A stretch of DNA of 43,758 nucleotides, taken from Candidatus Goldiibacteriota bacterium (GTDB taxonomy: Bacteria > Oederibacteriota > PGYV01). Below are positions 4,516 to 32,370 of the stretch, in pieces. Position 1 is the first letter of the stretch; each line of letters begins with the position of its first letter. Below the pieces are notes generated by a model that saw only the letters and a list, made by a program, of their open reading frames with translations, ran no database searches and was not told where the DNA came from. The stretch lies in NCBI GenBank assembly GCA_016937715.1, contig JAFGWA010000116.1, positions 1 to 43,758 on the forward strand, in the 5' to 3' direction. Made by a program: the position numbers and the translations under genes.

Positions 4516-4529
4516 TAAGTTTTAGTATT

Positions 4530-4566
4530 GGTAGACGCGGGTATTTAGCCCGCGGCAATTGATTTT
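4530..4566 (+). repeat. Family B REP-like palindrome
   Basis: A GGTAGACGCGGG left part and an AGCCCGCGG right part form a CGCGGG/CCCGCG stem (4536-4541 with 4549-4554). Nearly identical copies occur at 20071, 38454 and 40734. Confidence 0.8.
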
Positions 4567-4590
4567 TAAAATAGCGAATTAAGCTATAAG

Positions 4591-4642
4591 CAGTTAAGCA
4601 GAAGCGAAAACGTAAGAAATTTGTTTCGCTATAGCTTAACTG
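4591..4642. repeat. Long imperfect inverted repeat
   Basis: Arms at 4591-4609 and 4624-4642 pair at 16 of 19 positions: CAGTTAAGC pairs with GCTTAACTG and AGCGAAA with TTTCGCT. TAAGCTATA at 4580-4588 could instead pair with TATAGCTTA at 4630-4638, giving two exclusive folds. There is no T-tract after it, so it is not a simple terminator. Confidence 0.55.
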
Positions 4643-4723
4643 TTAAATCGTTCATATGATGTGTTTTATAATCCATATGCGGTTTTAACGTTAAAATTTT
4701 GTTATTAATACATTAAAAATTAA

Positions 4724-4751
4724 TTGACCGAACTGAAATTTCTGCTATAAT
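4724..4751 (+). promoter_or_regulatory. Sigma-70 promoter of the SLH-type barrel gene
   Basis: TTGACC (4724-4729), a 16-bp spacer and a perfect TATAAT (4746-4751), with an extended -10 TGC just before it, lie about 47 bp upstream of the start codon. This is one of the best promoter matches in the window. Confidence 0.7.
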
Positions 4752-4798
4752 AAGCGGACATTATTACAAAACAGGGAAATTTTGTTAAGGAGATAAGC

Positions 4799-7234: not shown

Positions 7235-7240
7235 TCAGCT

Positions 7241-7276
7241 GTTCGTGAAGCCAAGCGTGAAACGCGCAGGCTGAAC
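7241..7276. repeat. Stepped hairpin after the barrel gene
   Basis: GTTC/GAAC, AGCC/GGCT and GCGT/ACGC pair in nested order between 7241 and 7276. There is no T-run, so it may be another REP-like unit rather than a terminator. Confidence 0.45.
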
Positions 7277-7290
7277 GTTACAGATGACTA

Positions 7291-7332
7291 TACTTTTTGT
7301 AGCGCTTATGTTTAAAAGCGCACAAAAAAGTA
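7291..7332. repeat. Inverted repeat with A/T-rich outer stem
   Basis: TACTTTTTGT-A-GCGCTT (7291-7307) pairs with AAGCGC-A-CAAAAAAGTA (7316-7332) around a short loop, with one mismatch and one bulge. It may act as a weak transcription stop between the two barrel genes. Confidence 0.45.
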
Positions 7333-7360
7333 TATAATTTTCTTGGTTTTTTTTGTTCTT

Positions 7361-7387
7361 GTAGGGACAGCGCTCCTGCGCTGTCCG
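7361..7387. repeat. REP-like palindrome with GGACAGCGC arms
   Basis: A perfect 9-bp stem GGACAGCGC/GCGCTGTCC (7365-7373 with 7378-7386) with a TCCT loop follows a TTGTAGG lead-in. A degenerate relative with the same lead-in begins near 38338. Confidence 0.7.
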
Positions 7388-7458
7388 CGTAAGGTTTGTA
7401 ATGAAGGTGTTGTATTTAAAGATAAAAAATATTTACTAAATATATGGAGGTACACTTA

Positions 7459-9696: not shown

Positions 9697-9713
9697 AAGT
9701 ATTTTGTTCTTTA

Positions 9714-9741
9714 TTGTAGAGACGCAACATGTTGCGTCTCC
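9714..9741. repeat. Family A REP-like palindrome
   Basis: A perfect 22-bp palindrome (9719-9740, half-site GAGACGCAACA) is preceded by TTGTA. Related copies occur near 13299, 24500, 28864 and 38292. No T-tract follows this copy. Confidence 0.8.
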
Positions 9742-9799
9742 GGTGTAAAAAGTGGCAGCTGCGGTTTGATGCGGTATATTTTGATGAATTTAATGTAAA

Positions 9800-9835
9800 C
9801 TTTTTGTCAGGTAATTCCGTCAAACTGACAGAAAG
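9800..9835. promoter_or_regulatory. Inverted repeat upstream of the CBM9-like gene
   Basis: CTTTTTGTCAG (9800-9810) and CTGACAGAAAG (9825-9835) are complementary at 10 of 11 positions around a 14-bp centre, ending 35 bp before the start codon. It could be an operator or a leader hairpin; no regulator is identified. Confidence 0.35.
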
Positions 9836-9870
9836 AAACAATAAAAAATATCTTTAAAGGAGGCAATAAA

Positions 9871-10590
9871 ATGAAGAAAATCGCGGTAATGGCAGTACTG
9901 GTACTGGCTTTCTCGGCGGTGTTTGTTTACGCTGAAAAACCAAAAACGACTCTTAGCATCGTATCGGAAGGTTTTACAATTGACGGTTCGCTTGCGGACT
10001 GGGCGGCAGTTAAACCTGTTGTTCTTGACAGTGCAAAAATGTTAACTCACGGTAAGGCGGAATGGGCGGGCAAAGAAGTTCAGTCTGGGAAAGTTTATGT
10101 TGCTTTTACGGAAGACGCGCTTTATGTAGCTGCAGAAGTAAAAAGCCCCAAAGGAATTGCTAATAATAATGTAGGCAAAGATATGTGGAACGGAAATGCG
10201 GTGGAAGTATTTATTGGATTTGATAATTCAGACCCGGAAAGGGAAATGTACACGGAATCTGACTACCAGCTTGGTTTTAACCCGGGGAAAGTAAATAAAG
10301 AAGGCAAAGTAATAAACAAACCGGAAGTTTACTGTTTTAACATGGAACAGAATGCGGAAGGTTCAAAAATAAAGGCAAAAAAGATAAAAGGCGGATACAT
10401 CATTGAAGCAATGGTTCCGGGTTCTTTCTTTCCTGCGTGGAACGTTGCAAGCGGCAATGAAATTTCTTTTGACATAAGCATAGATGACCAGGGAACAAAA
10501 GGCGCGGCAAGAAAGCTTCAGTTCACATGGTCGGGATACGCTGAAAGTTACAAGAATCCTGCCGGTTGGGGAACCGCGGTTTTAAAATAA
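9871..10590 (+). CDS. Secreted CBM9-like carbohydrate-binding protein
   Basis: A 239-residue protein with signal peptide (about 1-21, ending VYA) and essentially one domain. That domain resembles the family 9 carbohydrate-binding / DOMON-like sandwich: an opening FTIDGSLADWAAVKPV, a middle LYVAAEVKSP, the acidic NAVEVFIGFDNSD segment and a late GGYIIEAMVPGSFF strand. These features typify CBM9-like domains that bind reducing ends of beta-glucans or xylan, often attached to xylanases; here the domain stands alone. AGGAGG lies 8 bp before the ATG. Its position between outer-membrane barrels and glycan-binding lipoproteins suggests a surface or periplasmic glycan-binding role. Ligand not determinable from sequence. 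Confidence 0.75.
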   Translation: MKKIAVMAVLVLAFSAVFVYAEKPKTTLSIVSEGFTIDGSLADWAAVKPVVLDSAKMLTHGKAEWAGKEVQSGKVYVAFTEDALYVAAEVKSPKGIANNNVGKDMWNGNAVEVFIGFDNSDPEREMYTESDYQLGFNPGKVNKEGKVINKPEVYCFNMEQNAEGSKIKAKKIKGGYIIEAMVPGSFFPAWNVASGNEISFDISIDDQGTKGAARKLQFTWSGYAESYKNPAGWGTAVLK

Positions 10591-10631
10591 TATATTAAAG
10601 AAAGATAAAATTGAGGGAGGTAATACCGAAT

Positions 10632-11792
10632 ATGAAAAAAGCTCTGGTAACGGTAATAGTGGTACTTGCCGCAGTCGGGATAATATTCTCGGCATGCAGC
10701 AAGAAAAGAACGGTTCCGGTTGCGCCGGAAGATTTAGGCACGGCAACATATACGCATACATTTACCAATACTCCTACTGAAACAAATACCATTGACCCGG
10801 CTGTTCCAACAAACACATTTACACGTACTTTTACAAGTACTCCGACTGAGACGCCTATTCCAAAACCCACAGGCTGGATAGATGACTGTGAAGACATATA
10901 TGGGCCAAACCAGAATGATTTCCAGGTAACAGGCGGGCCGGTTTTAAATTCCGGCGGATACTGGATAACTTATGACGATAACTCAAAGCAGAATAATGGA
11001 ACATCCTACGTTTGGCCTATGTCTGATACATGGGCTGAGAGGAAATCTGTTTCTCCTGAACCTTTTGTAATGTCAGCTCCCGGTTATACCGGTTCTCCTT
11101 ATGGACAGAGTTTTGCGGCGCGTATTACCGGTTATGTAACTGGCTGCGAAGGCGGGTCAGGCAGCTGGTGGTTAGATACCACGTGCACCGGGCTTGGTAC
11201 TATTACAATATATAATCCTATTGACGAAACAACGGTATTCAGGTTTGGTTTTATCGGTATGGGCTGTCAGTTAACACCTACAGCAGGTGAAGGTGCCACA
11301 GGTTATACCGCAGGACAGACCGGTGTTGCCGGCCTTATTGACGATCCGCTGGACTGTCAGGAAGTTGATATTTCGGGCTTTACCGGAATAAGGTTCTGGT
11401 ATAAAGGCGACGGAATGAACTGGAGGGTTAAGATACCGTTTACCAACCAGCTTAACTGTGATGGGAAGTATCATCCGGAAATGCCTGTCGGAGAAGAAGC
11501 TGCGATTATGGCTACGTCAAGTTATACAAAAGCCAATGATGCGGGCTTTAATATTATGGCCAGTGCCACGGATTGGACATTAATAGAGATACCGTTCTCC
11601 TCGCTTGCTTATGAAACATGGGGCGCTCCGCTTACCACAGACTGCTCTGCACCCGGCGGAGATTGCGCGATCACCACGGTACTTCAGCATGTGAAACAGA
11701 TACAGTTCCAGACATTCGGAGATCCGGCGGCAGAGAACCGTTATCCTAACTCCCGCGAAATATGGATTGACGATATAGAACTTTATTATTAA
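10632..11792 (+). CDS. Lipoprotein with Thr-rich stalk and CIA30/CBM11-like domain
   Basis: The start at 10632 gives a normal lipoprotein signal (MKKALVTVIV..., lipobox FSAC, lipidated Cys19). The earlier TTG at 10611 would add seven residues and spoil it. GGGAGG lies at 10615-10620, slightly far from the ATG. After the Cys come two short alternating-Thr stretches (about 37-80), the same linker type as in the GH9 enzyme. A beta-sandwich of about 300 residues follows, with WIDDCED near its start, an IRFWYKGDG strand, WTLIEIPFSSL and a terminal REIWIDDIELYY. This pattern recalls CBM11/CIA30 galactose-binding-like folds. It probably binds a beta-glucan on a membrane-anchored stalk. Fold assignment is by pattern only. 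Confidence 0.65.
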   Translation: MKKALVTVIVVLAAVGIIFSACSKKRTVPVAPEDLGTATYTHTFTNTPTETNTIDPAVPTNTFTRTFTSTPTETPIPKPTGWIDDCEDIYGPNQNDFQVTGGPVLNSGGYWITYDDNSKQNNGTSYVWPMSDTWAERKSVSPEPFVMSAPGYTGSPYGQSFAARITGYVTGCEGGSGSWWLDTTCTGLGTITIYNPIDETTVFRFGFIGMGCQLTPTAGEGATGYTAGQTGVAGLIDDPLDCQEVDISGFTGIRFWYKGDGMNWRVKIPFTNQLNCDGKYHPEMPVGEEAAIMATSSYTKANDAGFNIMASATDWTLIEIPFSSLAYETWGAPLTTDCSAPGGDCAITTVLQHVKQIQFQTFGDPAAENRYPNSREIWIDDIELYY

Positions 11793-11818
11793 TAAATAAA
11801 GGCAATACTGATATAAAT

Positions 11819-11844
11819 CCGGCCGCGGGTTAAACCGCGGCCGG
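11819..11844. repeat. Perfect 10-bp GC hairpin between lipoprotein genes
   Basis: CCGGCCGCGG (11819-11828) pairs perfectly with CCGCGGCCGG (11835-11844) around a GTTAAA loop. There is no T-run, so it is not a standard terminator. It may protect mRNA ends, pause transcription, or be a relative of the family B palindromes. Confidence 0.6.
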
Positions 11845-11876
11845 AAGAACTTATATAAACAAACAGGAGTTAAAAA

Positions 11877-12536
11877 GTGAAAAAAATACAATTTATAGCA
11901 TATATAACAGCCGCGTTGTTCGTATTAACTTCCTGTGCCGGCGTTGTTGAAGTGAAAACTCCGGGTATTACCGGCGGAAAGATAGTGCCTAAAACTGTAA
12001 AGAAGAAATTTAAACCCGTTTTATTTGAAGATTTTGAAGCCGGCACAGCTGTCGGTTCTTATTCATATGCCAATACGGGCGGAAACGCTTCGGCTGAAAA
12101 GTTTGTGGCGACGATGGATGAAAAACACGGCGGAAATTATTCCGCGTTTTCTTCGTTTGACACCGGCGCTGACGGCGCGTGGGGTGTTGGCATAGGAACC
12201 CAAAGCGCGTACGGCGGCGGTTATATAGATGCTAAAGACAGGGATACCTTTTCAATCTGGGTAAAAGCGCCTGCGGGTATGCCTTTTTATTTCTTCTGCA
12301 ACGAAGCGCAGGATAACGGCGGGGACGGGGAATTCTGGAATTCGCCTAACCAGACAGGTACAGGTAAATGGGACCTTTATGAAGTAAGCATGGATGAGTT
12401 TTACAAAAATATATATTCCGGAAATCAGGAAGGCAATAACGCGGTTGATATGACTGCAATGGGCACCATAGGGCTGCAGTTTTCCGGTTCGGTAGGCAAG
12501 GGAACAGTATATATAGATGATGTATATTTTAAATAA
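11877..12536 (+). CDS. Lipoprotein with CIA30/CBM11-like domain, copy 1
   Basis: A 219-residue lipoprotein starting at GTG, with AGGAG (11865-11869) 7 bp upstream. A hydrophobic signal ends in the lipobox LTSC followed by AGVV. The mature part is one galactose-binding-like beta sandwich: VLFEDFEAGTAVGSYSYAN near its start, a TFSIWVKAPAGMPFYFF strand, a GTGKWDLYEVSMDEF segment and a closing GTVYIDDVYFK. The order of strands and the terminal IDD motif fit CIA30/CBM11-like domains. The next gene is a clear paralogue. Probably a surface or periplasmic glycan-binding lipoprotein; ligand unknown. Confidence 0.65.
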   Translation: MKKIQFIAYITAALFVLTSCAGVVEVKTPGITGGKIVPKTVKKKFKPVLFEDFEAGTAVGSYSYANTGGNASAEKFVATMDEKHGGNYSAFSSFDTGADGAWGVGIGTQSAYGGGYIDAKDRDTFSIWVKAPAGMPFYFFCNEAQDNGGDGEFWNSPNQTGTGKWDLYEVSMDEFYKNIYSGNQEGNNAVDMTAMGTIGLQFSGSVGKGTVYIDDVYFK

Positions 12537-12566
12537 TCACAGAAACTAATTATTTCGGAGGCTGAA

Positions 12567-13223
12567 TTGAAAAAAACAATTGTAATTTCTTCATTCATAG
12601 CGGCATTATTTTTAATTACTTCCTGCGCGGGCGTAATTTCATTCAGAAAACCCGGTACCGCAAGGGTTTCAAAGGCCGCTGCAGGGGCTGTGTTAAAGCC
12701 CGTTCTTTTTGATGATTTTGAAAGGGGAAATATCCCGATGTCTTATTCTTACGCCAACACGCAGGCGGCGGCTAATATGTCTAAGTTTGCGGTTACAGGC
12801 GATGAAAAATATAACGGAAGCAGTTCTGCGGCTTCGGCTTATGACACGGGGACAAGTTCTGAATGGGGCTGCGGCGCGGCTCTTGCCAGCGCTTATGCAA
12901 CCGAAGGTTACATTGATGCCGCAGGAAGAAAGTTTATTACGGCATGGGTACTTGCTCCGGAAAATACAACTTTTTATTTCTTTGTAAATGAAGCCGCGGC
13001 AAACGGCGGCGACGGGGAATACTGGAATTCGCCAAGCCAGACAGGCGCGGGAAAGTGGGCTTATTATGAAATTCCTTTTGATGAATTCTTCAAGAATATA
13101 TATTCCGGCTCACAGGCGGGAAATAATGATTTAGACCCATCCGCTATAGGCGTTGTCGGCGTTCAGCTTGGCGGTATGCAGGGTAAGGGTACAATATATC
13201 TGGATGATATCTGGCTTAAGTAG
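12567..13223 (+). CDS. Lipoprotein with CIA30/CBM11-like domain, copy 2
   Basis: A 218-residue paralogue of the preceding lipoprotein, separated by only 30 bp, so a tandem duplication within one operon. It uses a TTG start with GGAGG (12557-12561) 5 bp upstream. Lipobox ITSC is followed by AGVI. Shared blocks include VLFDDFERGN, SYSYANT, GGDGEYWNSPSQTG, a FKNIYSG segment and GTIYLDDIWLK. Conserved Trp and Asp positions suggest both copies keep the same fold, while loops differ (for example AAANMSKF versus NASAEKF), perhaps giving different ligand preference. Transcription ends at a strong terminator just downstream. Confidence 0.65.
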   Translation: MKKTIVISSFIAALFLITSCAGVISFRKPGTARVSKAAAGAVLKPVLFDDFERGNIPMSYSYANTQAAANMSKFAVTGDEKYNGSSSAASAYDTGTSSEWGCGAALASAYATEGYIDAAGRKFITAWVLAPENTTFYFFVNEAAANGGDGEYWNSPSQTGAGKWAYYEIPFDEFFKNIYSGSQAGNNDLDPSAIGVVGVQLGGMQGKGTIYLDDIWLK

Positions 13224-22525: not shown

Positions 22526-23560
22526 ATGATGAAAATGATAAAAGCGGCTGTGATTGGGGCGGGCAAGATTGCGGAAAGGACGCATCTTCCGCAGTATAAA
22601 GAATTAAAGAATGTGGAAGTGGCGGCAATATGCGATATAAACAGAAAAAAAGCTGAACGCCTTGCGAAAATATTTTCAATACCGGCTGTATATACAGATT
22701 ACAAAAAGATGATAAAAGAGTGCGGCTGCGAAGCTGTTTCCGTATGTACCCCCAACTATCTTCACGCGCCTATGTCAATATTCGCTGCAAAAAATAATAT
22801 GCACGTCCTTGTGGAAAAACCTATGGCGATGTCAGTAAAAGAGATGAAAGCAATGATAGCGGCTTCAAAGGCGGCTATGAAAATTTTAATGGTGGAACAG
22901 TCACACCGTTTTGACCCCGGCCACGAAGTTTTAAAAGATATAGTGGACAGCGGCATCATTGGAAAAGTTGTATCAGTGCGCGGCAAGCTTGGCCATTCCG
23001 GGCCGGAATTCTGGTCGGATGATTCTCCATGGTTTTTTGATGAAAAAAAATCAGGCGGCGGCGTGACTGTTGATGTCGGAATACACATCCTTGACCTTAT
23101 CCGTTTTGTCACCGGCAAGAATGTGGCGTCGGTCTCCGGTTATATGGCAAACCTTGTAAAGAAAAAAGCAAAACTTGAAGATAACGTGGAAGCCGCGCTT
23201 AAATTCACGGACGGAACAATAGGAGTGTATGAAGCCTCGTGGACAAACAGCCCGTATGAAGTTGTAGTGCAGGTTTACGGGACAAAAGGCAAAGCAATGG
23301 TAAACCAGTCCAACTATGACCCGCAGAGGGTGCGCGTGTGGACGGTGGATCCGGCAAATCCATACAACACGGTAAAGGAAGTCAGGTATAAGATTCCCGC
23401 GAAAAGCAGGAATATAAGCCCTATCGGGCATTTTGTTGACTGTATGGTAAACAAAAAGAAATGTATTATAGACGGAACAGAAGGTATGAAATCCGCTGCT
23501 GTTGTTATTGCCACAAGGCAGTCCGCCAAAACCGGCAAGCCGGTTAAACTTACGGTATAG
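22526..23560 (+). CDS. Gfo/Idh/MocA family NAD(P)-dependent sugar dehydrogenase
   Basis: Cytosolic oxidoreductase of 344 residues, the usual family length. A Rossmann fold begins AAVIGAGKIAERTH (glycine-rich dinucleotide loop). The conserved EKPMAMS loop lies near residue 95, with its Lys expected at the active site. DVGIHILDLIRF near 180-190 carries the Asp-x3-His pair common in the family. The C-terminal sheet domain is complete. The start could be either of two adjacent ATGs (22526 or 22529); AGGAG at 22518 fits the second slightly better. The next gene, a sugar isomerase-like TIM barrel, starts 11 bp after the stop, so they form an operon. The family covers inositol, glucose, apiose and many other sugars; substrate not assigned. 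Confidence 0.85.
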   Translation: MMKMIKAAVIGAGKIAERTHLPQYKELKNVEVAAICDINRKKAERLAKIFSIPAVYTDYKKMIKECGCEAVSVCTPNYLHAPMSIFAAKNNMHVLVEKPMAMSVKEMKAMIAASKAAMKILMVEQSHRFDPGHEVLKDIVDSGIIGKVVSVRGKLGHSGPEFWSDDSPWFFDEKKSGGGVTVDVGIHILDLIRFVTGKNVASVSGYMANLVKKKAKLEDNVEAALKFTDGTIGVYEASWTNSPYEVVVQVYGTKGKAMVNQSNYDPQRVRVWTVDPANPYNTVKEVRYKIPAKSRNISPIGHFVDCMVNKKKCIIDGTEGMKSAAVVIATRQSAKTGKPVKLTV

Positions 23561-23571
23561 GGAGAACGCAA

Positions 23572-24405
23572 ATGTCATATAAGCTAAGCGCGGTTACATG
23601 GTCGCAGCACTATTCTTATGAACTTGGAAAGATTGATGATATGGGTTTGATTGACCTTTATGCAGAACATGGCCTTGGCGGAATTGAATTTATTATGGAG
23701 CATTTAAAATCTCACGGTGAAAAACACCTGTTAAAATTGAAAAAATACGCGTCAGATAAAAATATTACTTTTTCCGCAATATCGCCGGGCAATAATTTTG
23801 GCAATGTGAACGATAAGGATAATAAAGCAAATCTGACATACGTTCAGAAAAGCATTGATACCGCGTATATCCTTGGCGCGCCAAATGTAAGGGTGTTTGC
23901 CGGCTGGCCGCCCGCGGGTATGCGTGAAAAGATGCGGGGCACAGCTGTTAGGTATATGAAGCTTGCCGCAAAATATGCCGAAAAAAAGGGAATAACGCTT
24001 GCGGTAGAGCCGCATAACAACGGCGGTTTTCTGCCGGATTCAAAGTCCGCAATCAGGTTCATAAAAGATGTTAACTCCCCGTCTGTTAAAATGAATGTAG
24101 ATACCGGGAATTACCTTGGGCACGATGAGGATATTTATAAAGCAATAGCCGCTTCAATGAAATATACCGTAAACTGCCACTTAAAAGTCCACGCCATATC
24201 CAAAGACGGCAAAAAGACATCCGACTTTAATCTTGATAGGGTGTTTGAAGTGTTAAGCGGCGCGCAATATACCGGGTGGATAGCAATTGAATATGAAGGG
24301 CAGGAATTTGTAAGTGGTGAAAAACCGGACAGGGCAAAGAATGAAATGGAGTATTTTGGGGCGGCTGTCAAAAGGGCGAAGGAACTGATAAAGAAGTACT
24401 ATTAA
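23572..24405 (+). CDS. Sugar phosphate isomerase/epimerase-like TIM barrel
   Basis: 277 residues of the xylose-isomerase-like (AP endonuclease 2) superfamily, typical length. The expected metal-ligand strands are visible: GIEFIMEHLK near residue 45, LAVEPHNNGG near 143 (Glu ligand), KMNVDTGNYLGHDED near 173-185 (Asp and His ligands) and WIAIEYEGQEF near 238 (Glu). Family members isomerise or epimerise sugars, inosose or hydroxypyruvate using a divalent metal. Its coupling to a Gfo/Idh/MocA dehydrogenase 11 bp upstream is a frequent pairing in catabolism of inositol and unusual sugars. The substrate cannot be named. No promoter lies between the two genes, so they are probably co-transcribed. 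Confidence 0.8.
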   Translation: MSYKLSAVTWSQHYSYELGKIDDMGLIDLYAEHGLGGIEFIMEHLKSHGEKHLLKLKKYASDKNITFSAISPGNNFGNVNDKDNKANLTYVQKSIDTAYILGAPNVRVFAGWPPAGMREKMRGTAVRYMKLAAKYAEKKGITLAVEPHNNGGFLPDSKSAIRFIKDVNSPSVKMNVDTGNYLGHDEDIYKAIAASMKYTVNCHLKVHAISKDGKKTSDFNLDRVFEVLSGAQYTGWIAIEYEGQEFVSGEKPDRAKNEMEYFGAAVKRAKELIKKYY

Positions 24406-24439
24406 GGCGGAAGGTTGGATGGTTAGATGCTTTGTTTAA
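24406..24439 (+). repeat. Short family D tract
   Basis: GGCGGAAGGTTGGATGGTTA followed by GATGC and TTTGTTTA starts at the base after the isomerase stop codon. It is a short, diverged form of the GATGCTTGG-type tract. Confidence 0.55.
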
Positions 24440-24494
24440 AAATGGTTGAAACGGGCGTGTGGAAGGAAATGTCAGAAACATGCCGAAAATGATA

Positions 24495-24526
24495 ATGTGG
24501 AATCGCAATATATTGCGGCTTTTTCA
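24495..24526. repeat. Family A palindrome, degenerate
   Basis: TGTGGAATCGCAATA mirrored by TATTGCGGCTT and followed by a short T run. It resembles the 38292 copy in its GCAATATATTGC core, but the outer stem has decayed. Confidence 0.55.
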
Positions 24527-24590
24527 AGGATATATTTTGTACCTGCAGCTGCAGGCATGGGCTTTTCAAAATACGGGTAAAATTTTTGCC

Positions 24591-24619
24591 TTTAAACTTC
24601 CTATCTATTAATATATAAT
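24591..24619 (+). promoter_or_regulatory. Sigma-70 promoter of metF
   Basis: TTTAAA (24591-24596), a 17-bp spacer and TATAAT (24614-24619) lie 32 bp before the TTG start. Confidence 0.5.
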
Positions 24620-24650
24620 AACATTCATAAAATTTGAAAGGGGCAATAAC

Positions 24651-25526
24651 TTGAAGATAAGCGAAATTTTAAAGAATAAAGAGTTTGTTTTTTCCCTGGA
24701 GATATTTCCGCCAAAGCCGGATTCGGATATATCGGTAATTTATAATACACTGGACGGGCTTAAGGATTTAAAGCCCGATTTTATAAGCATTACATTTGGC
24801 GCCGGCGGCGGCACCCGTTCAAGGACTGTGGAAATTGCGGAACGTATTGAAAATCATTATAAAATACCCTGCATGGCACACCTTACCTGCATTGGCGCCA
24901 CAAAAGATTCCATTACAGGTATATTAAATGAACTGCAATCAAAGAATATTCAGAATATAATGGCGCTAAGGGGCGACCTGCCTGAAGGTGTTAAAGACCC
25001 GCTGAAAGATTTCAAGTACGCATCTGACCTTGTTAAATTTATAAAGAATAAATGGGATTTCTGCGTGGGTGTAGCCGGATACCCTGAAAAACACCCTGAA
25101 GCAATAGATATAAAAGTGGATATAGAAAATCTTAAGAATAAAGTTGAAGCAGGGGCTTCTTTTATCACCACTCAGTTGTTTTTAAATGATGACCATTACT
25201 TCAATTTTGTTAAATTGGCCAGGGAAGCGGGAATCAAAGTGCCTGTTCTGCCGGGAATAATGACAGCGACAAAGATTTCAAGCCTTGAACGTATGACAAA
25301 GATGTGCGGAGTGGAGATTCCGGAGCGGTTTAAAGCAGCCACTTCCACCTGTGCAATTGATAATCCTGTATGTGATGAAACCGTGAAATATACCGTAAAT
25401 CAGATAAACCATCTGATAAAAAATGGCGTGCCCGGAATTCATCTGTATTCTATGAACAGGGTGGAACAGAACAGGCGTATTTATGAAGAGTCGGATATCT
25501 CAAAGTTGAGAAAAGAAAATGCTTAA
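24651..25526 (+). CDS. metF: 5,10-methylenetetrahydrofolate reductase
   Basis: Cytosolic flavoenzyme of the folate one-carbon pathway, reducing 5,10-methylene-THF to 5-methyl-THF for methionine synthesis (or, in some anaerobes, the Wood-Ljungdahl methyl branch). At 291 residues it has the standard short bacterial length. Family motifs seen: FSLEIFPPKPD at the start with the conserved Glu, FISITFGAGGGTRSRT, MAHLTCIGA, NIMALRGDLPEG (FAD contact region), GVAGYPEKHPEA, GASFITTQLF and GVPGIHLYSMNR near the end. The start is TTG, preceded by AAAGGGG at 24637-24643. It overlaps the fluoride-channel gene by 8 bp. No gene for a zinc or iron-sulfur partner subunit lies beside it. Confidence 0.93.
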   Translation: MKISEILKNKEFVFSLEIFPPKPDSDISVIYNTLDGLKDLKPDFISITFGAGGGTRSRTVEIAERIENHYKIPCMAHLTCIGATKDSITGILNELQSKNIQNIMALRGDLPEGVKDPLKDFKYASDLVKFIKNKWDFCVGVAGYPEKHPEAIDIKVDIENLKNKVEAGASFITTQLFLNDDHYFNFVKLAREAGIKVPVLPGIMTATKISSLERMTKMCGVEIPERFKAATSTCAIDNPVCDETVKYTVNQINHLIKNGVPGIHLYSMNRVEQNRRIYEESDISKLRKENA

Positions 25527-25908
25527 TAAGATACTTATGGTGGCGGCAGGCGGCGGCCTTGGTGCTGTTTTAAGATACGCTGTCACGCACTTTGTTAACC
25601 TGGCGTTTCCCGGGACTGTTGTATCCCACTGGGGTACGCTTGCGGTTAATCTTGTCGGTTCTTTTCTGATAGGCATTCTGTTTTCCACCGTGCAGGGTGT
25701 GCCGCATTTTAACCATCTGTGGCTGTTTTTCGCGGTGGGGTTTATGGGAGCGTTTACAACGTTTTCGTCATACGCTCTGGAAATGCATAACCAGCTTGGC
25801 GCGGGAATGTATAAAGACGCCGCGCTTAATTTTTTACTGAATAATATTGGCGGTGTACTTATGGTTTTTGCGGGTATAATGGTTGTTAAGATGGTAAAAG
25901 GACAATAA
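25519..25908 (+). CDS. fluC: Fluoride ion channel FluC/CrcB
   Basis: A 129-residue inner-membrane protein with four hydrophobic segments, forming a dual-topology dimer that exports fluoride in characterised members. Diagnostic motifs: GGGLGAVLRY at the start, GTLAVNLVGSFLIG with the conserved Asn, and GFMGAFTTFSSY, which carries the Phe box and the central cation-site region. The length is that of a single-gene FluC. It begins 8 bp inside the end of metF, so translation is probably coupled. A fluoride riboswitch was looked for upstream of metF and not recognised. Confidence 0.92.
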   Translation: MLNKILMVAAGGGLGAVLRYAVTHFVNLAFPGTVVSHWGTLAVNLVGSFLIGILFSTVQGVPHFNHLWLFFAVGFMGAFTTFSSYALEMHNQLGAGMYKDAALNFLLNNIGGVLMVFAGIMVVKMVKGQ

Positions 25909-25924
25909 AAAATTAGGGGCTTTT

Positions 25925-26737
25925 ATGAAAATTGACGTACATACCCATTTTTTTCCCGATGAAATCGCGGAAAAAACAATAAGGCACCTTGAAAACCTTG
26001 GCGGCATAAAAGGGTATGGCAACGGTGATTTAGTATCTTTGCGGCAGTATATGAAAGAAGACGGCGTTGATATATCGGTTAATGTGCCGGCCGCCACAAA
26101 GCCGGAGCAGATTACCGGAATTAACAGGCGCATGGTTGAATTCAACAAAGCCGGAAATAAAGATGTTATATGTTTTGGCGCTATGCACCCTTATTTTAAT
26201 ACCGTAGGCAGTTTTGAGGATGAAATTCAGTTTTTATATGATAATGGCATTAAAGGCATTAAGATGCACCCGGAGTATCAGCAGTTTTATCCTGATGACG
26301 GGCGGGTAAAAAAAGTTTATAAGACTTGTTCAAAACTGGGCATGATAATTTTATTTCACGCCGGGGCGGACTGCGCTTTTGATGAGAACGATGTAAAAGG
26401 CACGCCGCAGCGGTTTGCAAGGGTTGCTGAAACTTATCCGCAGTTGAAAATGGTGCTTGCCCACATGGGCGGCTATCACCTGTGGGATGACGTTTACAGG
26501 TATCTTGTCGGCAAAAATGTTTATTTTGACACTGCCTTCTGTGATGAAATGGAAGATACGGCTTTTACCAATATAATAAAAGACCACGGAACGGATAAAG
26601 TAATGCTTGGTTCTGACTTTCCGTGGGAACGCTCGGGCAAAATTATAGCGAAGATTGAAAAGTGTTTTCCTGAAAATGATATCAAAGAAAGAATATATCA
26701 TTTAAACGCCGAAAAACTTCTGGGTCTGTCAGTCTGA
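25925..26737 (+). CDS. Amidohydrolase-2 family metal-dependent hydrolase, copy 1
   Basis: A 270-residue TIM-barrel hydrolase. Visible motifs are the N-terminal metal site DVHTHFFPDE (His6, His8), GIKMHPEYQQFYPDD after strand 4, LFHAGAD, VLAHMGG and the C-terminal GSDFPWE with the catalytic Asp. This is the amidohydrolase-2 (ACMSD-like) family, whose members act as decarboxylases, lactonases or hydrolases. It starts 16 bp after fluC, and the next gene is a paralogue whose ATG directly follows this gene's TGA. Substrate unknown; lactone or carboxylate chemistry on a sugar acid would fit the neighbouring sugar dehydrogenase, but that is inference. Confidence 0.8.
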   Translation: MKIDVHTHFFPDEIAEKTIRHLENLGGIKGYGNGDLVSLRQYMKEDGVDISVNVPAATKPEQITGINRRMVEFNKAGNKDVICFGAMHPYFNTVGSFEDEIQFLYDNGIKGIKMHPEYQQFYPDDGRVKKVYKTCSKLGMIILFHAGADCAFDENDVKGTPQRFARVAETYPQLKMVLAHMGGYHLWDDVYRYLVGKNVYFDTAFCDEMEDTAFTNIIKDHGTDKVMLGSDFPWERSGKIIAKIEKCFPENDIKERIYHLNAEKLLGLSV

Positions 26738-27556
26738 ATGAAAATCATTGATACTCACACCCACTTTTTTACCGATGACAGAAGTCCGGCAGATAAAGAG
26801 TATCTTAAATCAGAAGGTTTGATACTGGAAGGTAATGACGGGGAGCTTGAAGGGTTAAAAAAGTTTATGAGAGAAGACGGGGTATCTGTTTCGGTAAATG
26901 CCCCTATTGCTTTATCACATCAGGCCTGTTTAAAAGTGAACAGGATGATGATTGAATTTAATAATACGCAGAAAGATGTAATCTGCCTTGGCACAATGCA
27001 TCCTTCAATGGAAAGGGAAGCGTTTGAAGAGGCGCGGTTTCTGGCAGAAAACGGTATCAAAGGCGTTAAGATGCACCCGCAGATTCAGGACTTTTATCCG
27101 GATGATAACAGTATGAAAGATATTTATGAAGCGTGCCAAAAGAACGGCCTTTATATGGTGCAGCACGCGGGCGCGGGCGCGGAGCCTGAATTTGACCGCG
27201 ATAAAATAAAAGGAACGCCTGAAAGATTTAGAGATGTTATTGAGACATATCCCGGTTTAAAACTGGTAATAGCGCACATGGGCGGGCTTAATATGTGGGA
27301 AGATGCGATGAAATACCTTTGCGGTAAAAATGTCCTGTTTGACACCGCTTACTGTACGGTTATAAAAGACGCGCTGCTTACAGAAATAGTAAAAGCCCAC
27401 GGCGCGGATAAAGTAATGTTCGGTTCAGATTTCCCGTGGGTAAGGGCAAGGGATATAAAAGCAAAGCTTATAAGTTGTATCAAAGATGACAGGGAAAGGG
27501 AATTGGTTTTTTGGGGTAACGCGGCCGCTTTACTGGGGATAAAGCCGGTCGCATAA
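26738..27556 (+). CDS. Amidohydrolase-2 family metal-dependent hydrolase, copy 2
   Basis: A 272-residue paralogue of the previous gene, starting at the base after its stop codon, so a tandem duplication with probable translational coupling. The same motifs recur: DTHTHFF, GVKMHPQIQDFYPDD, VQHAGAG, VIAHMGG, NVLFDTAYC and GSDFPWVRA. All predicted metal and catalytic positions are kept in both copies, so neither looks degenerate. They may form a hetero-oligomer or act on related substrates. An inverted repeat with a T tail follows. Confidence 0.8.
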   Translation: MKIIDTHTHFFTDDRSPADKEYLKSEGLILEGNDGELEGLKKFMREDGVSVSVNAPIALSHQACLKVNRMMIEFNNTQKDVICLGTMHPSMEREAFEEARFLAENGIKGVKMHPQIQDFYPDDNSMKDIYEACQKNGLYMVQHAGAGAEPEFDRDKIKGTPERFRDVIETYPGLKLVIAHMGGLNMWEDAMKYLCGKNVLFDTAYCTVIKDALLTEIVKAHGADKVMFGSDFPWVRARDIKAKLISCIKDDRERELVFWGNAAALLGIKPVA

Positions 27557-27559
27557 GTG

Positions 27560-27606
27560 AGACGGGGCATATGAACCTGTTTCAATTATGCGACAAACGT
27601 CTTTTT
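27560..27606 (+). terminator. Possible terminator after the amidohydrolase pair
   Basis: AGACG (27560-27564) pairs with CGTCT (27598-27602), and an inner GCATA with TATGC, around a long loop. T5 follows. The stem is interrupted, so support is modest. Confidence 0.4.
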
Positions 27607-27655
27607 CTGTAAGGTAATATACCTTTAAAATCTCATATTTATAACAAATTCCATA

Positions 27656-27671
27656 TGGCACGGTATATGCT
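27656..27671 (+). promoter_or_regulatory. Sigma-54 (RpoN) promoter of the chemoreceptor gene
   Basis: TGGCACG-GTAT-ATGCT places the invariant GG (27657-27658) and GC (27669-27670) exactly 12 bp apart and matches the TGGCACG-N4-TTGCW consensus at all defined positions but one. The expected start of transcription is near 27682, about 35 bp before the start codon. Confidence 0.6.
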
Positions 27672-27716
27672 TTATTATTAACTGTAAGAATTATAAAATT
27701 ATAAAAGGGGTGCTAT

Positions 27717-28835
27717 ATGGAGGAAGCAACGACAGCTGTTCTGACCTGGGGAAATGTTTTCTATTCGCTTATCGTAACAACTGTGATAATAACATTGGGT
27801 TTTATTATTGTCAGTATCGGCTTGTATATGATATTCAGGAACAGGATGATATTTAAGATGTGGATAAGGATATATCCGGCAATTGTATTGATGATTATGA
27901 TTTCTAATTTTGTCACTAATGTCGGTTATGTCCCCGGGGTTGATAAACTTTTAATGCGGCTGATTACGCTTGGCGGTTCAACTTTGATGGTAATTACCAT
28001 ATTTGTTTTAACGGGAAGATATTTTGAAAAATCAATTGAATCAAATATAGGAAAATTAAAGGGCGCGGCAGATGAAGTGGCTTCGGTTTCTGTGCATATC
28101 GCGTCTGCAAGCCAGGACCTTGCCCAAAGCGCGTCAGAACAGTCTGCTGCTGTAACTGAAACGGCTTCCACCCTTTCACAGATTACGGATAATGCAAATA
28201 AAAATAACCAGCTTGCAGCAAGCGCCGGCGCCGCGTCAGGCCAGGCCGGTGAAGAGGCCGCGAAAGGTTCAATTTCAATAGCCAGAATGCAGGAAGCCAT
28301 AACCGCTATAAAGCAGTCATCTGATGAAACCGCCAAAATTATTAAGACAATAGATGATATTGCTTTTCAGACAAACCTTCTGGCGTTAAACGCGGCTGTG
28401 GAAGCGGCGCGCGCGGGTGAATCAGGGAAGGGGTTTGCTGTAGTTGCTGAAGAGGTAAGAAATCTTGCCAAACGTTCCGCTGATGCCGCAAAAAGCACAA
28501 CAGAACTAATACAGGGTGTTCAGAAAAATGTGGATAAAGGCACTGTTATATCGGCAGAGGTAAAAGAAGCGCTGGAACGCATGCGGGCAAGCGTTAATGA
28601 AACAGCAAAGGCAATTTCAGGCGTAAGCGTTTCGTCCAATGAACAGCTGTCCGGTATAAGAGAAGTAAATAAAGCAGTAGCTCAGGTTGATTCCAGCACG
28701 CAGAGCAATTCCGCAAATGCGGAAGAGACAGCAGCGGCCTCGGAAGAATTATCCGCGCAGGTTCATGAACTAAATTCCATGGTCGCGTCATTGTACGCAT
28801 TTTTGGATTTAACCGGGGGGAAGAAGACAGCATAA
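27717..28835 (+). CDS. Methyl-accepting chemotaxis protein without a periplasmic sensor domain
   Basis: A 372-residue chemoreceptor-type signal transducer. The N-terminal 105 residues hold about three hydrophobic helices (roughly 11-37, 48-66, 81-101) with short connections, so there is no extracytoplasmic sensor domain and no recognisable HAMP. The cytoplasmic helical bundle follows, with the conserved hairpin tip [20 protein letters not shown], then [17 protein letters not shown] at about 217-255. The tip binds CheW and CheA in known receptors. Ala/Glu/Gln/Ser-rich segments either side are potential methylation helices. AAAGGGG lies 6 bp before the ATG. The signal may be sensed within the membrane or by a partner; no che genes are in the window. 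Confidence 0.88.
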
Positions 28836-28861
28836 AGCCGGTGTTTAAATGTTTTTTAACG

Positions 28862-28893
28862 CGGAGGCGCAATGTATTGCGCCTCGTTTTTTT
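28862..28893 (+). terminator. Family A palindrome acting as terminator
   Basis: GAGGCGCAA (28864-28872) and TTGCGCCTC (28877-28885) form a 9-bp perfect stem with a TGTA loop, followed by G and T8. It belongs to repeat family A but also has the form of an intrinsic terminator for the chemoreceptor gene. Confidence 0.75.
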
Positions 28894-28983
28894 TGCCTGT
28901 ATAAAACAAAATCCCCGGGTATATTTTTAACTTTATCCTTTGCCTGTTATCTGTTAATATTACTTAATAACACGGAGGATATG

Positions 28984-29901
28984 ATGTCAAAACCTGAATT
29001 AAGCTGGCAGGAAAAAGCAAAAAATATGGCAGCCGGGATAAGAAAACGGGTGCTTGAACACACGATAAAGAATAACGGCGGTTATATGAGCCAGGCATGT
29101 TCCTCGGCGGAAATTTTTGCCGCGTTATACAGCAAAATATTAAAACTTGAACCTTCTAAAGGCCCGCTTGAACCAAAACCTTATGCCGGCGTTCCCGGTG
29201 CGGCAAATTCCAAATATTCCACCGGCGCTTATATGCACGGCGCGAAAAATCCTGAATATGACAGGTTTATACTGTCGCCCACGCATTATTCGCTTGTACT
29301 TTATGCCGCGCTGATAGAAGCGGGAAGAATGTCGGAAAATTCCCTTGAACAGTTTAACCGCGACGGGTCATCTGTAGAAATGATAGGGGCTGAACATTCC
29401 CCAGGAATGGAAGTAATGACAGGGTCTTTAGGGCAGGGGCTTGGACAGGCAGCCGGTATCGCGCTTGCCAGAAAAATGAAAAAAGAAGAAGGCCGGGTAA
29501 TTGTCATGATGTCAGACGGCGAGTTTCAGATAGGAATGACATGGGAATCGATGCAGTTTATATCGCACCATAAACTTGATAATATGGTGATAATTGTGGA
29601 TGTTAATAAACAGCAGTGTGACGGCGCGGTAAATTCAGTTATGAGAATTGACCCGCTGGATAAAAGGCTGGAAGCTTTTGGGGCAAGGGTCTTTAAATTA
29701 TACGGGCACAATATTAATGAACTTGCATCACGCGCGGAATTGAAGCCGGATGGAAGGGTGCTTGTTATACTTGCGGAAACTGACCCGTGCCAGGGGCTGT
29801 CCCTGTTAAGCGCGAACGCGCCCAAACTTCATTATTTAAGGTTTAAAAGCGCGGAAGAAAAAGAAAAATACGCGGAAGCGTTGAAACGGATGGCGGAATA
29901 A
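28984..29901 (+). CDS. Transketolase N-terminal (thiamine-diphosphate binding) subunit
   Basis: The start at 28984 is chosen because GGAGG (28974-28978) sits 5 bp before it. A longer in-frame reading from 28849 would run through the family A terminator. The 305-residue product is the first half of a transketolase. It has LSPTHYSLVLYAAL and GSLGQGLGQAAGIALA in the Pyr/PP interface region and MMSDGEFQIGMTWE (about 175-188), the thiamine-diphosphate/metal motif. VDVNKQQCDG supplies the downstream Asn ligand. The usual GDGE is SDGE here. The second half is the next gene, overlapping by 1 bp. Together they move two-carbon units between sugar phosphates. Two-gene transketolases occur both in central metabolism and in the apulose-4-phosphate enzyme AptAB. 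Confidence 0.85.
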   Translation: MSKPELSWQEKAKNMAAGIRKRVLEHTIKNNGGYMSQACSSAEIFAALYSKILKLEPSKGPLEPKPYAGVPGAANSKYSTGAYMHGAKNPEYDRFILSPTHYSLVLYAALIEAGRMSENSLEQFNRDGSSVEMIGAEHSPGMEVMTGSLGQGLGQAAGIALARKMKKEEGRVIVMMSDGEFQIGMTWESMQFISHHKLDNMVIIVDVNKQQCDGAVNSVMRIDPLDKRLEAFGARVFKLYGHNINELASRAELKPDGRVLVILAETDPCQGLSLLSANAPKLHYLRFKSAEEKEKYAEALKRMAE

Positions 29902-30908
29902 TGGAATTATTATCAAGGGTTCATCAGAAGAATCTTGTCTCCTGGGCAAGGGACAGGGAAAATGTCCTTGTATTGTCCGCGGACCTTACAGGTTCGTGCG
30001 AAGCTGACCTTTTCAGGGACACGTATCCGTCGCGTTTTATTTCCTGCGGAATTGCGGAGCAGAATATGATGTCGGTTGCCGGAGGCCTTGCAAGGGAAGG
30101 ATTTATTCCTTTAATTCATACCTTCGCGGTTTTTATTTACAGAAGGGCGTATGATCAGATTGCGATGTCTGTGGCGTATCCGAATCTGCCGGTTAAGATG
30201 TTTGGTTTTCTTCCCGGAATAGTAACGCCGGGCGGCGCCACCCACCAGGCAATAGAAGATGTTTCTGTAATGAGGGCGCTGCCAAATATGACAATACTTG
30301 AGACAGGCGATGCCACGGATGTTGAAAGCGTGCTTGACGTAATGCGCGCTGTTAATGGCCCGGTTTATATCAGAATGTTAAGGGGGGAATTGCCGCGCCT
30401 TTTTTCCGCGGATGAACCCATGAAGTTTGACACTCCCAGAATTATAAGCAAAGGCACGGATGTGACAATTATATCATCCGGGATATGCACAGAAGAAACC
30501 CTGCGCGCTGCCGCGGCTATGAAGAAAAAAGGCGTGTCGGTAAATCACGTGCACGTTTCCACGTTAAAACCTTTTAATAATAAAATGTACGCGGATATAA
30601 TAAATACCGGAAAATACGGCGTAATAACCGTTGAAAACCATACCACTACCGGCGGGCTTGGCACAATAGTGGCGGAAAAAGCGGTAGCCTGCGGTATTAA
30701 TAAAAGAATGGCAAGGCTGGGTTTAAGGGACACCTTTACCCATGGAGCAAGCAGGGCTTACCTTATGAAAGAACACGGCTTTGATGCCGCGGCTATTATA
30801 CACGCTGTCGAAAAGATGACGGGAAACAAACTGAATATTTCCGATGATGAACTTGCCAAAGTAAGAATTGAAGCGGTTCATTCCGAAGCTAAAGCCGAAG
30901 GCCTCTAA
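29901..30908 (+). CDS. Transketolase C-terminal (pyrimidine-binding) subunit
   Basis: A 335-residue partner of the preceding subunit; the ATG overlaps the upstream TAA by one base, implying coupled translation. The catalytic Glu expected to activate thiamine diphosphate is in CGIAEQNMMSVAGGLA (Glu53). FLPGIVTPGGATHQAIED and RMLRGELPRLF follow in the pyrimidine-binding domain. The C-terminal transketolase domain begins near residue 185 (DVTIISSGICTEETLRAA) and contains ENHTTTGGLGTIVAEK. Both halves look intact, so the enzyme should be an active heterotetramer. The Gdx gene starts 26 bp downstream and the RLP gene follows that, suggesting a four-gene operon. Confidence 0.87.
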   Translation: MELLSRVHQKNLVSWARDRENVLVLSADLTGSCEADLFRDTYPSRFISCGIAEQNMMSVAGGLAREGFIPLIHTFAVFIYRRAYDQIAMSVAYPNLPVKMFGFLPGIVTPGGATHQAIEDVSVMRALPNMTILETGDATDVESVLDVMRAVNGPVYIRMLRGELPRLFSADEPMKFDTPRIISKGTDVTIISSGICTEETLRAAAAMKKKGVSVNHVHVSTLKPFNNKMYADIINTGKYGVITVENHTTTGGLGTIVAEKAVACGINKRMARLGLRDTFTHGASRAYLMKEHGFDAAAIIHAVEKMTGNKLNISDDELAKVRIEAVHSEAKAEGL

Positions 30909-30934
30909 TAAATTCTAAAAATCAGGAGAGTATC

Positions 30935-31252
30935 ATGGACTGGATAATTCTGTTTATTGCGGGCATATTTGAAACGGCGTGGGCGCTTACGCTTAAATAC
31001 ACGCAGGGATTTACAAAACCCATGTTCAGCGTGATTGCCGTTATTTTTATGGTAATAAGTTTTTTCCTGCTGTCATACGCGTTAAAGACAATTCCGGTGG
31101 GAACAGCTTATGCGGTATGGACGGGAATCGGAGCGCTTGGCGTTGCAATTATAGGTATAGTGTTTCTGGCAGAACCGGTTAACGCGGTGCGCATAATCAG
31201 CCTGCTTTTGGTGGTCGCCGGTGTTGCGGGTTTAAGGCTGGCGGGAAAATAA
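30935..31252 (+). CDS. gdx: SMR-family exporter, guanidinium-exporter (Gdx/SugE) type
   Basis: A 105-residue four-helix inner-membrane protein of the small multidrug resistance family, which works as an antiparallel dimer driven by protons. Glu13 and Trp16 lie in IAGIFETAWALTLKYTQGFT, and GTAYAVWTGIGALG lies near residue 56. This Glu-x2-Trp-Ala...Lys pattern separates Gdx/SugE proteins from EmrE-type drug exporters. AGGAG lies 8 bp before the ATG. Its stop codon overlaps the RLP start by one base. No guanidine riboswitch is recognised upstream; placement inside a transketolase-RLP operon is unexpected for Gdx. Confidence 0.85.
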   Translation: MDWIILFIAGIFETAWALTLKYTQGFTKPMFSVIAVIFMVISFFLLSYALKTIPVGTAYAVWTGIGALGVAIIGIVFLAEPVNAVRIISLLLVVAGVAGLRLAGK

Positions 31253-32370
31253 TGAACAATACAGGGTGGTTTGCCGCGCGGTACAATATTTCTGCGGGTA
31301 ATATGGCGGAAGCCAAAGAACGCGCTTTTGATATCTGCGTGGAGCAGACTGTTGAATTTCCGTATGACCTGATAAAGAAAAAAAGCATCAGGGAAAACAT
31401 TGTCGGAAAAATAAGTTCGTTAAGTGAGATTAAGAAAGGTCTTTATAATGCGGAAATTTTATTTCCGTCTGCCGCGGCGGGTAATGAATTAACCCAGTTA
31501 TTCAATGTCCTGTTCGGCAATATCAGTATAAAGCCCGGAATCAAACTTGAAAAGTTTGAACTTACAGGTGCCATGTTAAAAACTTTTACCGGCCCGCGCT
31601 TCGGGGTTAAAGGGATAAAAAAAATAACCGGCAATAAAAAACGCCCGCTTGTATGTTCCGCTTTAAAGCCAATGGGAACAAGTGTTAAAGAACTGGCGGA
31701 ACTTGCATATAAATTTGCGCTTGGCGGAATAGACATAATAAAAGACGACCATGGCCTTGCTGACCAGAAATTTTCACCTTTTAATGAAAGGGTAAAAAGG
31801 TGTACGGAGGCGGTAAGAAAAGCAAACAGGCAGACCGGATACAATACGGTATATATGCCAAATGTTACGGGGGACGGGACAGAGACTTTAAAGAGGGCAA
31901 AGTTTGCGGCAAAGTACGGCGCGGGAGCGGTTATAATTTCAGGGGCGCTTTCAGGTTTTGCTTCCATTCTTGAAGTATCGCGTGATAATAAAGTAAACGT
32001 ACCTGTTTTTTTTCACCCTGCTTTTGCCGGCAGTTTCACTTCCTGCGGGAATTCCGGAATAAGCCATTACGCGCTGTATGGGCAGCTTACAAGGCTGTCA
32101 GGCGCGGATGCCGCTATCTTTCCAAGTTACGGCGGACGGTTTTCTTTTTCAAAAGAGGAATGCAGAAGCATTGTTAATGGCTGTACTGATAAATTCGGGA
32201 ATGCAAAGTCCATCATGCCGGCGCCGGGCGGCGGTATGACGGTTGAACGCGCGGCAGAACTTAAGCAATTCTACGGCAATGATGCCGTATTTCTTATCGG
32301 CGGGGGATTGTTCAGGCATAGTGACGATATTACCAAAAGCGTAAGGGATTTTATTGCCTGTCTAGAGTAG
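31252..32370 (+). CDS. Form IV RuBisCO-like protein (RLP)
   Basis: A 372-residue RuBisCO large-subunit homologue, shorter than true RuBisCO (about 450-475). The N-terminal domain (about 1-120) precedes a TIM barrel. By hand comparison, SALKPMG keeps the Lys175 equivalent (Lys139) but loses Lys177. GGIDIIKDDH keeps the carbamylated Lys201 and Asp203 equivalents (Lys164, Asp166), with Glu204 replaced by His167. HPAFAG (255-260) replaces the HIHRAMH segment, and the loop-6 Lys334 position falls at or near Arg296 in SYGGRF. CO2 fixation is therefore unlikely. Known form IV proteins are DK-MTP-1-P enolases (MtnW) or enzymes of apionate breakdown (OiaC, OiaX). Context favours a sugar-acid reaction; function unproven. 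It overlaps gdx by one base. Confidence 0.85.
   Translation: MNNTGWFAARYNISAGNMAEAKERAFDICVEQTVEFPYDLIKKKSIRENIVGKISSLSEIKKGLYNAEILFPSAAAGNELTQLFNVLFGNISIKPGIKLEKFELTGAMLKTFTGPRFGVKGIKKITGNKKRPLVCSALKPMGTSVKELAELAYKFALGGIDIIKDDHGLADQKFSPFNERVKRCTEAVRKANRQTGYNTVYMPNVTGDGTETLKRAKFAAKYGAGAVIISGALSGFASILEVSRDNKVNVPVFFHPAFAGSFTSCGNSGISHYALYGQLTRLSGADAAIFPSYGGRFSFSKEECRSIVNGCTDKFGNAKSIMPAPGGGMTVERAAELKQFYGNDAVFLIGGGLFRHSDDITKSVRDFIACLE

Follow-up and report, generated by a model that had tools for sequence, protein, structure and literature searches.

5'-Methylthioadenosine (MTA) and 5'-deoxyadenosine are toxic by-products of the use of S-adenosylmethionine. Salvage by the MTA-isoprenoid shunt relies on a RuBisCO-like protein (RLP) of the DeepYkr type and a cupin. 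In Rhodospirillum rubrum and Rhodopseudomonas palustris the DeepYkr RLP turns 5-methylthioribulose-1-phosphate (MTRu-1P) mostly into 1-methylthioxylulose-5-phosphate, which the cupin then converts to 1-deoxyxylulose-5-phosphate (DXP), and this is the one in vivo role previously known for a DeepYkr RLP (PMC5893883). Other systems that bear comparison are the dihydroxyacetone phosphate (DHAP) shunt, which comprises MtnP or MtnK, MtnA and the class II aldolase Ald2/DrdA, and the D-apiose and D-apionate pathways with AptAB, OiaX or OiaC, and OiaK. Here we analyze a contig of 43,758 nucleotides (JAFGWA010000116.1, our contig C116; the whole stretch is called the window) from a Candidatus Goldiibacteriota bacterium with a 2.59-Mb genome that is 96% complete in 124 contigs. 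The window carries a trio of genes, TKn-TKc-RLP, for a two-subunit (split) transketolase and an RLP, and sequence comparison makes it probable that this trio serves in the salvage of 5-substituted 5-deoxyribose phosphates, with the transketolase replacing the cupin after the RLP.

The trio resembles the MTA-isoprenoid shunt in the clade and active-site motifs of its RLP, in its MtnA partner and in its independence of oxygen, but it has a split transketolase-like enzyme in place of the cupin and its expected product is a triose phosphate rather than DXP. With the DHAP shunt it would share the first steps to MTRu-1P or 5-deoxyribulose-1-phosphate as well as a carbon-carbon cleavage to triose phosphate and a C2 product; it differs in that the order to which the bacterium belongs has no class II aldolase and in that cleavage would follow RLP isomerization and use thiamine diphosphate. 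The D-apiose and D-apionate pathways also employ a member of the RLP family or a split transketolase in sugar catabolism, but their RLPs lie on another branch, the OiaK family is missing from seven genomes of the order, and the transketolase donor site differs from that of an automatically annotated AptB. The closest solved structure to the trio transketolase is the split enzyme of Carboxydothermus hydrogenoformans (6YAK/6YAJ), which has the same two-chain architecture and thiamine-diphosphate site but keeps His100, Asp469 and the histidine of THAG, all of which the RLP-linked transketolase has lost. Sulfoacetaldehyde acetyltransferase (Xsc) and phosphoketolase serve as mechanistic precedent only; they belong to different families for which no close homology is claimed.

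A conserved trio of transketolase subunits and a RuBisCO-like protein

The conserved unit is the TKn-TKc-RLP trio at 28981-32370, which in the window contains one additional gene:

28981..29901, + strand: TKn, diphosphate-binding N-terminal subunit of the split transketolase that is linked to the RLP
29901..30908, + strand: TKc, pyrimidine-binding and C-terminal transketolase subunit
30935..31252, + strand: SugE-like transporter of the small multidrug resistance family, absent from the gene list of an earlier sequence-only reading of this DNA
31252..32370, + strand: RLP of the DeepYkr type with a KDDHG motif

The SugE-like gene is an insertion that we saw in no genus other than that of the window. 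TKn, TKc and RLP are contiguous in 11/11 relatives from the order that have the trio-type RLP, even where all other neighbors differ, and in a phylum-mate (G044) TKc lies directly before RLP. A scan of GTDB genomes returned at least 529 related loci, of which the best 80 were kept for neighborhood counts. TKc is beside RLP in 64 of these 80, nearly always with TKn before it, and the spacing between TKc and RLP is usually 117 bp or less or the genes overlap, with overlaps of 1-4 bases being frequent. TKc-RLP loci occur in at least ten phyla that include Bacillota, Chloroflexota, Spirochaetota, Nitrospirota, Myxococcota, Calditrichota and Planctomycetota, as well as in a Lokiarchaeota metagenome-assembled genome, and among the hosts of the trio are Heliobacterium mobile, H. 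chlorum, Heliophilum, Clostridium ljungdahlii, C. drakei, Alkalispirochaeta and Calditrichales. Distances among TKc proteins and among their RLPs are correlated (r = 0.79, n = 64), and judged from these sequences the two evolve together. The sequence-only reading had linked a two-subunit transketolase to an RLP, and these counts uphold that linkage; the lack of conserved linkage in relatives, which the same reading named as an outcome that would speak against it, was not seen for the trio.

Predicted function of the RuBisCO-like protein

The window RLP is predicted to be a DeepYkr-type 5-methylthioribulose-1-phosphate (or 5-deoxyribulose-1-phosphate) 1,3-isomerase. Its best match in the PDB is 3QFW at 269 bits, which we take to be R. 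palustris RLP1, as compared with about 149 bits for MtnW structures. No NCBIfam equivalog model scores above its cut-off, with mtnW models at 229 against 409 bits and 177 against 513.6 bits, and OiaX at 89 against 700 bits. In a tree of 106 proteins, built by a quick method that overstates support for long branches such as those flagged for plasmid proteins, all RLPs partnered with a transketolase or a cupin fall into a single clade (SH-aLRT 99), and MtnW, OiaX and a second RLP of the window genome lie outside it. The active-site motifs KP.G, KDDHG, HP, GGRF and P.GG are, with few exceptions, common to 72 transketolase-type and 14 cupin-type RLPs, two groups that share about 35-43% identity. 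Both have KDDHG where MtnW and OiaX have KDDE, and His167 where the latter have Glu. An MtnW identity is ruled out by the sub-cut-off scores and the separate branch, as the sequence-only reading had supposed, and an OiaX identity is ruled out by its score and its different branch.

The second RLP of the window genome (G000:C85:15636-16860; L032:7637-8860) is of the KDDE type and scores 307 bits against OiaX (cut-off 700). Members of the order share it, even those that lack a trio-type RLP. In the window genome it is preceded by genes for ClpB, a YfmF/YfmH-like fused protein, a 137-amino-acid protein and an LpxF-like phosphatase.

A specialized split transketolase

The RLP-linked transketolase is an additional, divergent copy, since an ordinary split transketolase (G000:C14) and a DXS (G000:C36) are encoded elsewhere in the window genome. 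In the transketolase tree the RLP-linked enzymes form their own clade. Their retained catalytic residues mark them as thiamine-diphosphate enzymes of the transketolase superfamily: the D, E and Asn of the TKn diphosphate motif are present in 72/72 (reading SDGE versus GDGE...N), E411 and H473 are kept in 73/73 TKc, and the position of Arg520 is also retained, where correspondence to Escherichia coli transketolase (EcTK) residues is taken from alignment only here and below. The donor site is altered. EcTK His100 is lost in 72/72 RLP-linked TKn and kept in 15/15 other split transketolases; its position is Met in 71/72, with a one-residue gap, and an invariant EMIGAEHSPG stands instead of the usual GHPD. 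In TKc, H461 is replaced by L and D469 by G in 73/73. His100, Asp469 and His461 are kept in nearly all other split transketolases that were compared. According to a published study, His100 is among the donor-binding residues, DXS has Phe at this position, and the substitutions H100F and H100L confer activity on pyruvate to a transketolase (PMC7661550). Because His100 is lost in the RLP-linked enzymes, the donor is expected to be one without a C1 hydroxyl, such as 1-methylthioxylulose-5-phosphate or DXP. A housekeeping transketolase is ruled out by the separate ordinary enzymes in the genome and by the lost donor-site residues, in line with the sequence-only reading. An automatically annotated AptAB pair is placed elsewhere on a long branch, and its AptB keeps the ordinary transketolase residues.

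Several divergent relatives were also observed. A Vibrio nigripulchritudo plasmid (L246:1980-6599) carries a divergent trio followed by an FGGY kinase (TK-TK-RLP-FGGY kinase), and a Ponticoccus plasmid (L245:1-5125) carries a divergent trio behind a molybdopterin oxidoreductase gene; both keep EMIGAEHSPG, suggesting other input sugars. A sister family of split transketolases that lacks His100 and Asp469 lies near short-chain dehydrogenase/reductase genes with no RLP in Rhizobium sp. CC-CFT758 (L240:2994-4900) and Pantoea (L241:3055-4909), and possibly uses other 1-deoxy ketose donors.

Transketolase and cupin replace one another

A different partner adjoins some members of the same RLP clade. 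The RLP has a C-terminal cupin fusion in five phylum-mates, a cupin gene follows RLP on a Terrarubrum plasmid, and a cupin without a transketolase is beside RLP in 7/80 of the best loci. A free-standing cupin from such a locus matches Rru_A2000 (3JZV) over its full length with 143 bits. At least four partner switches are evident on the RLP tree, with cupin types forming a sister clade and also being nested inside the transketolase clade (Syntrophomonas/Pelotomaculum, Propionispora/Propionispira and one other Bacillota genome). In genomes picked by their RLP partner, a choice that leaves only the lack of the opposite partner informative, the cupin was absent from 9/9 transketolase-type genomes tested and from 7/7 genomes of the order (the window genome and six relatives), and the RLP-type transketolase was absent from 7/7 cupin-type genomes. 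In a separate set of 36 genomes, RLP-type TKc was present in 10/10 with a transketolase-type RLP and in 0/26 others. Transketolase and cupin thus exclude each other genome-wide and swap on the RLP tree. Most simply read, both act on the same RLP product. Membership of the window locus in the MTA-isoprenoid shunt itself is ruled out, as the cupin 1-methylthioxylulose-5-phosphate methylsulfurylase was sought in the order and not found.

Linkage to methylthioribose salvage genes

Plasmids of Pararhizobium, Mariluticola and NT-25 (Rhizobiaceae/Devosiaceae) carry mtnK-mtnA-TKn-TKc-RLP operons with an adjoining sugar ABC transporter gene. In C. ljungdahlii the same five genes follow genes for the ATPase and permease of a ribose/arabinose-type ABC transporter. 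Where loci outside the order extend far enough upstream, mtnK precedes the trio on the same strand in 9/37 and mtnA in 11/37. The substrates of MtnK and MtnA include both 5-methylthioribose and 5-deoxyribose (PMC5893883, PMC10986504). The window genome has an mtnA (G000:C87:3368-4354; 438 bits, cut-off 279) that adjoins a nucleoside phosphorylase gene. Additionally, a gene of the cystathionine gamma-synthase/lyase family is found near the trio in seven loci and cysK in four. MtnA is present in the order, whereas no class II aldolase was found in 7 of its genomes (0/7) and no acireductone dioxygenase above cut-off was found in it; with the cupin also absent, the trio is therefore the sole recognizable exit for MTRu-1P there.

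An LsrF-like thiolase gene lies near the trio in five loci (L131, L135, L142, L186 and L190), which include Chloroflexota and a spirochaete, and the L190 copy is above the NCBIfam cut-off, hinting at a link to autoinducer-2 (AI-2)-like C5 sugar phosphates.

Proposed pathway and alternative explanations

The trio, the DeepYkr kinship, the mtnK/mtnA linkage, the replacement of one partner by another and the change at the donor site are features of the sequences themselves. What the enzymes act on and which bond they break we infer as follows. MTA or imported 5-methylthioribose would be converted to 5-methylthioribose-1-phosphate by a nucleoside phosphorylase or MtnK, and MtnA would turn this into MTRu-1P. 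The RLP would then shift the carbonyl to give 1-methylthio-D-xylulose-5-phosphate, or DXP when starting from 5-deoxyribose. The two transketolase subunits (TKnc) would cut the C2-C3 bond of the 1-substituted xylulose-5-phosphate, yielding glyceraldehyde-3-phosphate and a CH3S-bearing C2 unit on thiamine diphosphate. This unit might be freed as methylthioacetaldehyde, be transferred to an acceptor, or lose methanethiol to form acetyl phosphate or acetate, and the methanethiol could go to methionine synthesis. For the loss of methanethiol Xsc offers a precedent: it depends on thiamine and splits a C-S bond, with acetyl phosphate as product (PMC6453916). The split transketolase may be a phosphoketolase of a new kind that acts on 1-methylthioxylulose-5-phosphate, expels methanethiol from the C2 unit on thiamine, much as Xsc expels sulfite, and forms acetyl phosphate and glyceraldehyde-3-phosphate, a version of the last step that we offer tentatively and consider rather less probable than not.

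A number of observations weigh against methylthioribose salvage by the trio. In no more than about 9-11 of the 37 testable loci does mtnK or mtnA precede the trio on its strand, and in the window genome mtnA is on a different contig from the trio. The phosphorylase beside it scores 85 bits against a cut-off of 275 for MTA phosphorylase (MtnP) and resembles purine nucleoside phosphorylases of the general type. The loss of Asp469 and His461 is not simply explained, and an RLP-type transketolase copy occurs without an RLP in one genome (G010:C42; L224:4769-6687), beside RidA-like and HAD hydrolase genes. The exclusion test used genomes selected by their RLP partner, and in eight (all but that of L185) of the nine whose RLP adjoins neither partner a close cupin was found elsewhere in two (L162, L188), only weak cupin matches in four, and neither partner in two. 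Finally, the activities ascribed here to the transketolase-linked enzymes derive from comparison of sequences.

The nearest competing explanation is that the main task of the trio is salvage of 5-deoxyribose and 5'-deoxyadenosine, with the RLP making DXP from 5-deoxyribulose-1-phosphate, the transketolase cleaving or re-using DXP, and no methylthio compound involved. MtnK and MtnA do serve 5-deoxyribose in the DHAP shunt (PMC10986504, PMC12632272), many hosts are anaerobes that we presume to be rich in radical-SAM enzymes, and loss of His100 fits a C1-methyl donor as well. However, a methylthio-removing cupin would be pointless as an alternative partner if the substrate were a 5-deoxy sugar, and the cystathionine gamma-synthase/lyase-family enzyme or cysK near some loci also argues against it. 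We regard this explanation as unlikely, and the nature of the alternative partner favors methylthioribose over 5-deoxyribose as main substrate. An ordinary role of the transketolase in the pentose-phosphate pathway or as a DXS, with the RLP as a mere neighbor, is very unlikely. Its thiamine-diphosphate site and catalytic Glu and His are retained and NCBIfam transketolase and DXS models match it, albeit below cut-off, but the genome has another split transketolase and DXS, the RLP-linked proteins have all lost His100, His461 and Asp469 and form their own clade, and apart from the one extra copy in G010 this type of transketolase is found only with transketolase-type RLPs.

The sequence-only reading had proposed a route for apiose or another branched sugar, in which the genes would be an AptAB-like transketolase and an OiaX/OiaC-like RLP acting on apiose, apionate or a related compound. 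The same broad families are indeed present (RLP, split transketolase, Gfo/Idh and TIM barrel), and a GH9 enzyme and a CBM9-like protein lie at the far end of the window. Against this, the RLP falls far short of the OiaX cut-off on another branch, PF07005, the OiaK family that the reading suggested seeking elsewhere in the genomes, is present in 0/7 genomes of the order, each with a completeness of 91% or more, the Gfo/Idh and TIM barrel genes are never near the trio outside the order, and linkage to mtnK and mtnA is found instead. We consider this route extremely improbable, and these comparisons indicate that the trio probably recycles a sulfur-containing sugar left from S-adenosylmethionine use rather than apiose.

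Boundaries of the unit and neighboring genes

The genes that precede the trio, with families as assigned by our searches, are as follows:

22526-23560, + strand: Gfo/Idh/MocA dehydrogenase
23572-24405, + strand: AP_endonuc_2 TIM barrel protein
22526..24405, + strand: these two genes as a separate pair, neighbors of the trio within the order only
24651-25526, + strand: MetF
25519-25908, + strand: CrcB/FluC
25925-26737 and 26738-27556, + strand: two copies of Amidohydro_2 proteins
24651..27556, + strand: metF, fluC and both amidohydrolase genes, a block of their own that is conserved within the order and in relatives usually lies convergent to the trio
27717-28835: chemoreceptor
28864..28893, + strand: intrinsic terminator with a 9-bp stem and a 4-base loop, then GTTTTTTTT

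Coordinates and family searches confirm the genes and families that the sequence-only reading had listed. Its view that they constitute one gene set stands in part: the split transketolase and RLP are a conserved metabolic unit, but the remaining genes are not partners outside the order. Outside the order, no locus out of 33 has MetF, Gfo/Idh or the TIM barrel near the trio (0/33), and the amidohydrolase gave one weak match; within it, these genes are often convergent to the trio. Clustering is above chance for TKn-TKc-RLP and not for the remaining genes outside the order. Gfo/Idh, TIM barrel, amidohydrolases, metF and fluC are thus neighbors of the trio and not its partners.

The terminator lies 3' of the chemoreceptor gene and before the trio (-16.1 kcal/mol, z -2.3). 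By itself the pattern scan does not rise above background, but no other stem is as long as that at 28864-28893, and eight T come after it. It closes the chemoreceptor unit, and TKn opens a new one. TKn could start at 28981, behind GGAGGA, or at 28849; the former is most likely, because a start at 28849 would read through the terminator. A single operon of all ten genes is ruled out by this terminator, by blocks that are convergent in relatives and by the finding that the other genes do not accompany the trio in genomes from outside the order. At its beginning (391-13223) the window encodes a GH9 enzyme, followed by two large proteins without a Pfam match, and CBM9-, CBM11- and CIA30-like proteins. 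Scanning the window for Rfam families and tRNAs produced no matches.

Implications for salvage in anaerobes

No description of an RLP-transketolase pairing for methylthio salvage was found in the literature searched, though some central papers lay outside that search, and the trio is widespread and apparently undescribed. Among the best 80 loci the commonest partner of the RLP is the specialized split transketolase, in at least ten phyla that include the cultured species H. mobile, H. chlorum, C. ljungdahlii and C. drakei. How anaerobes dispose of MTA and 5'-deoxyadenosine is partly known, and the trio predicts a thiamine-enzyme reaction and a further salvage route. If the transketolase does act as a phosphoketolase, then salvage of MTA and methylthioribose would be energy-yielding in many anaerobes from at least ten phyla.

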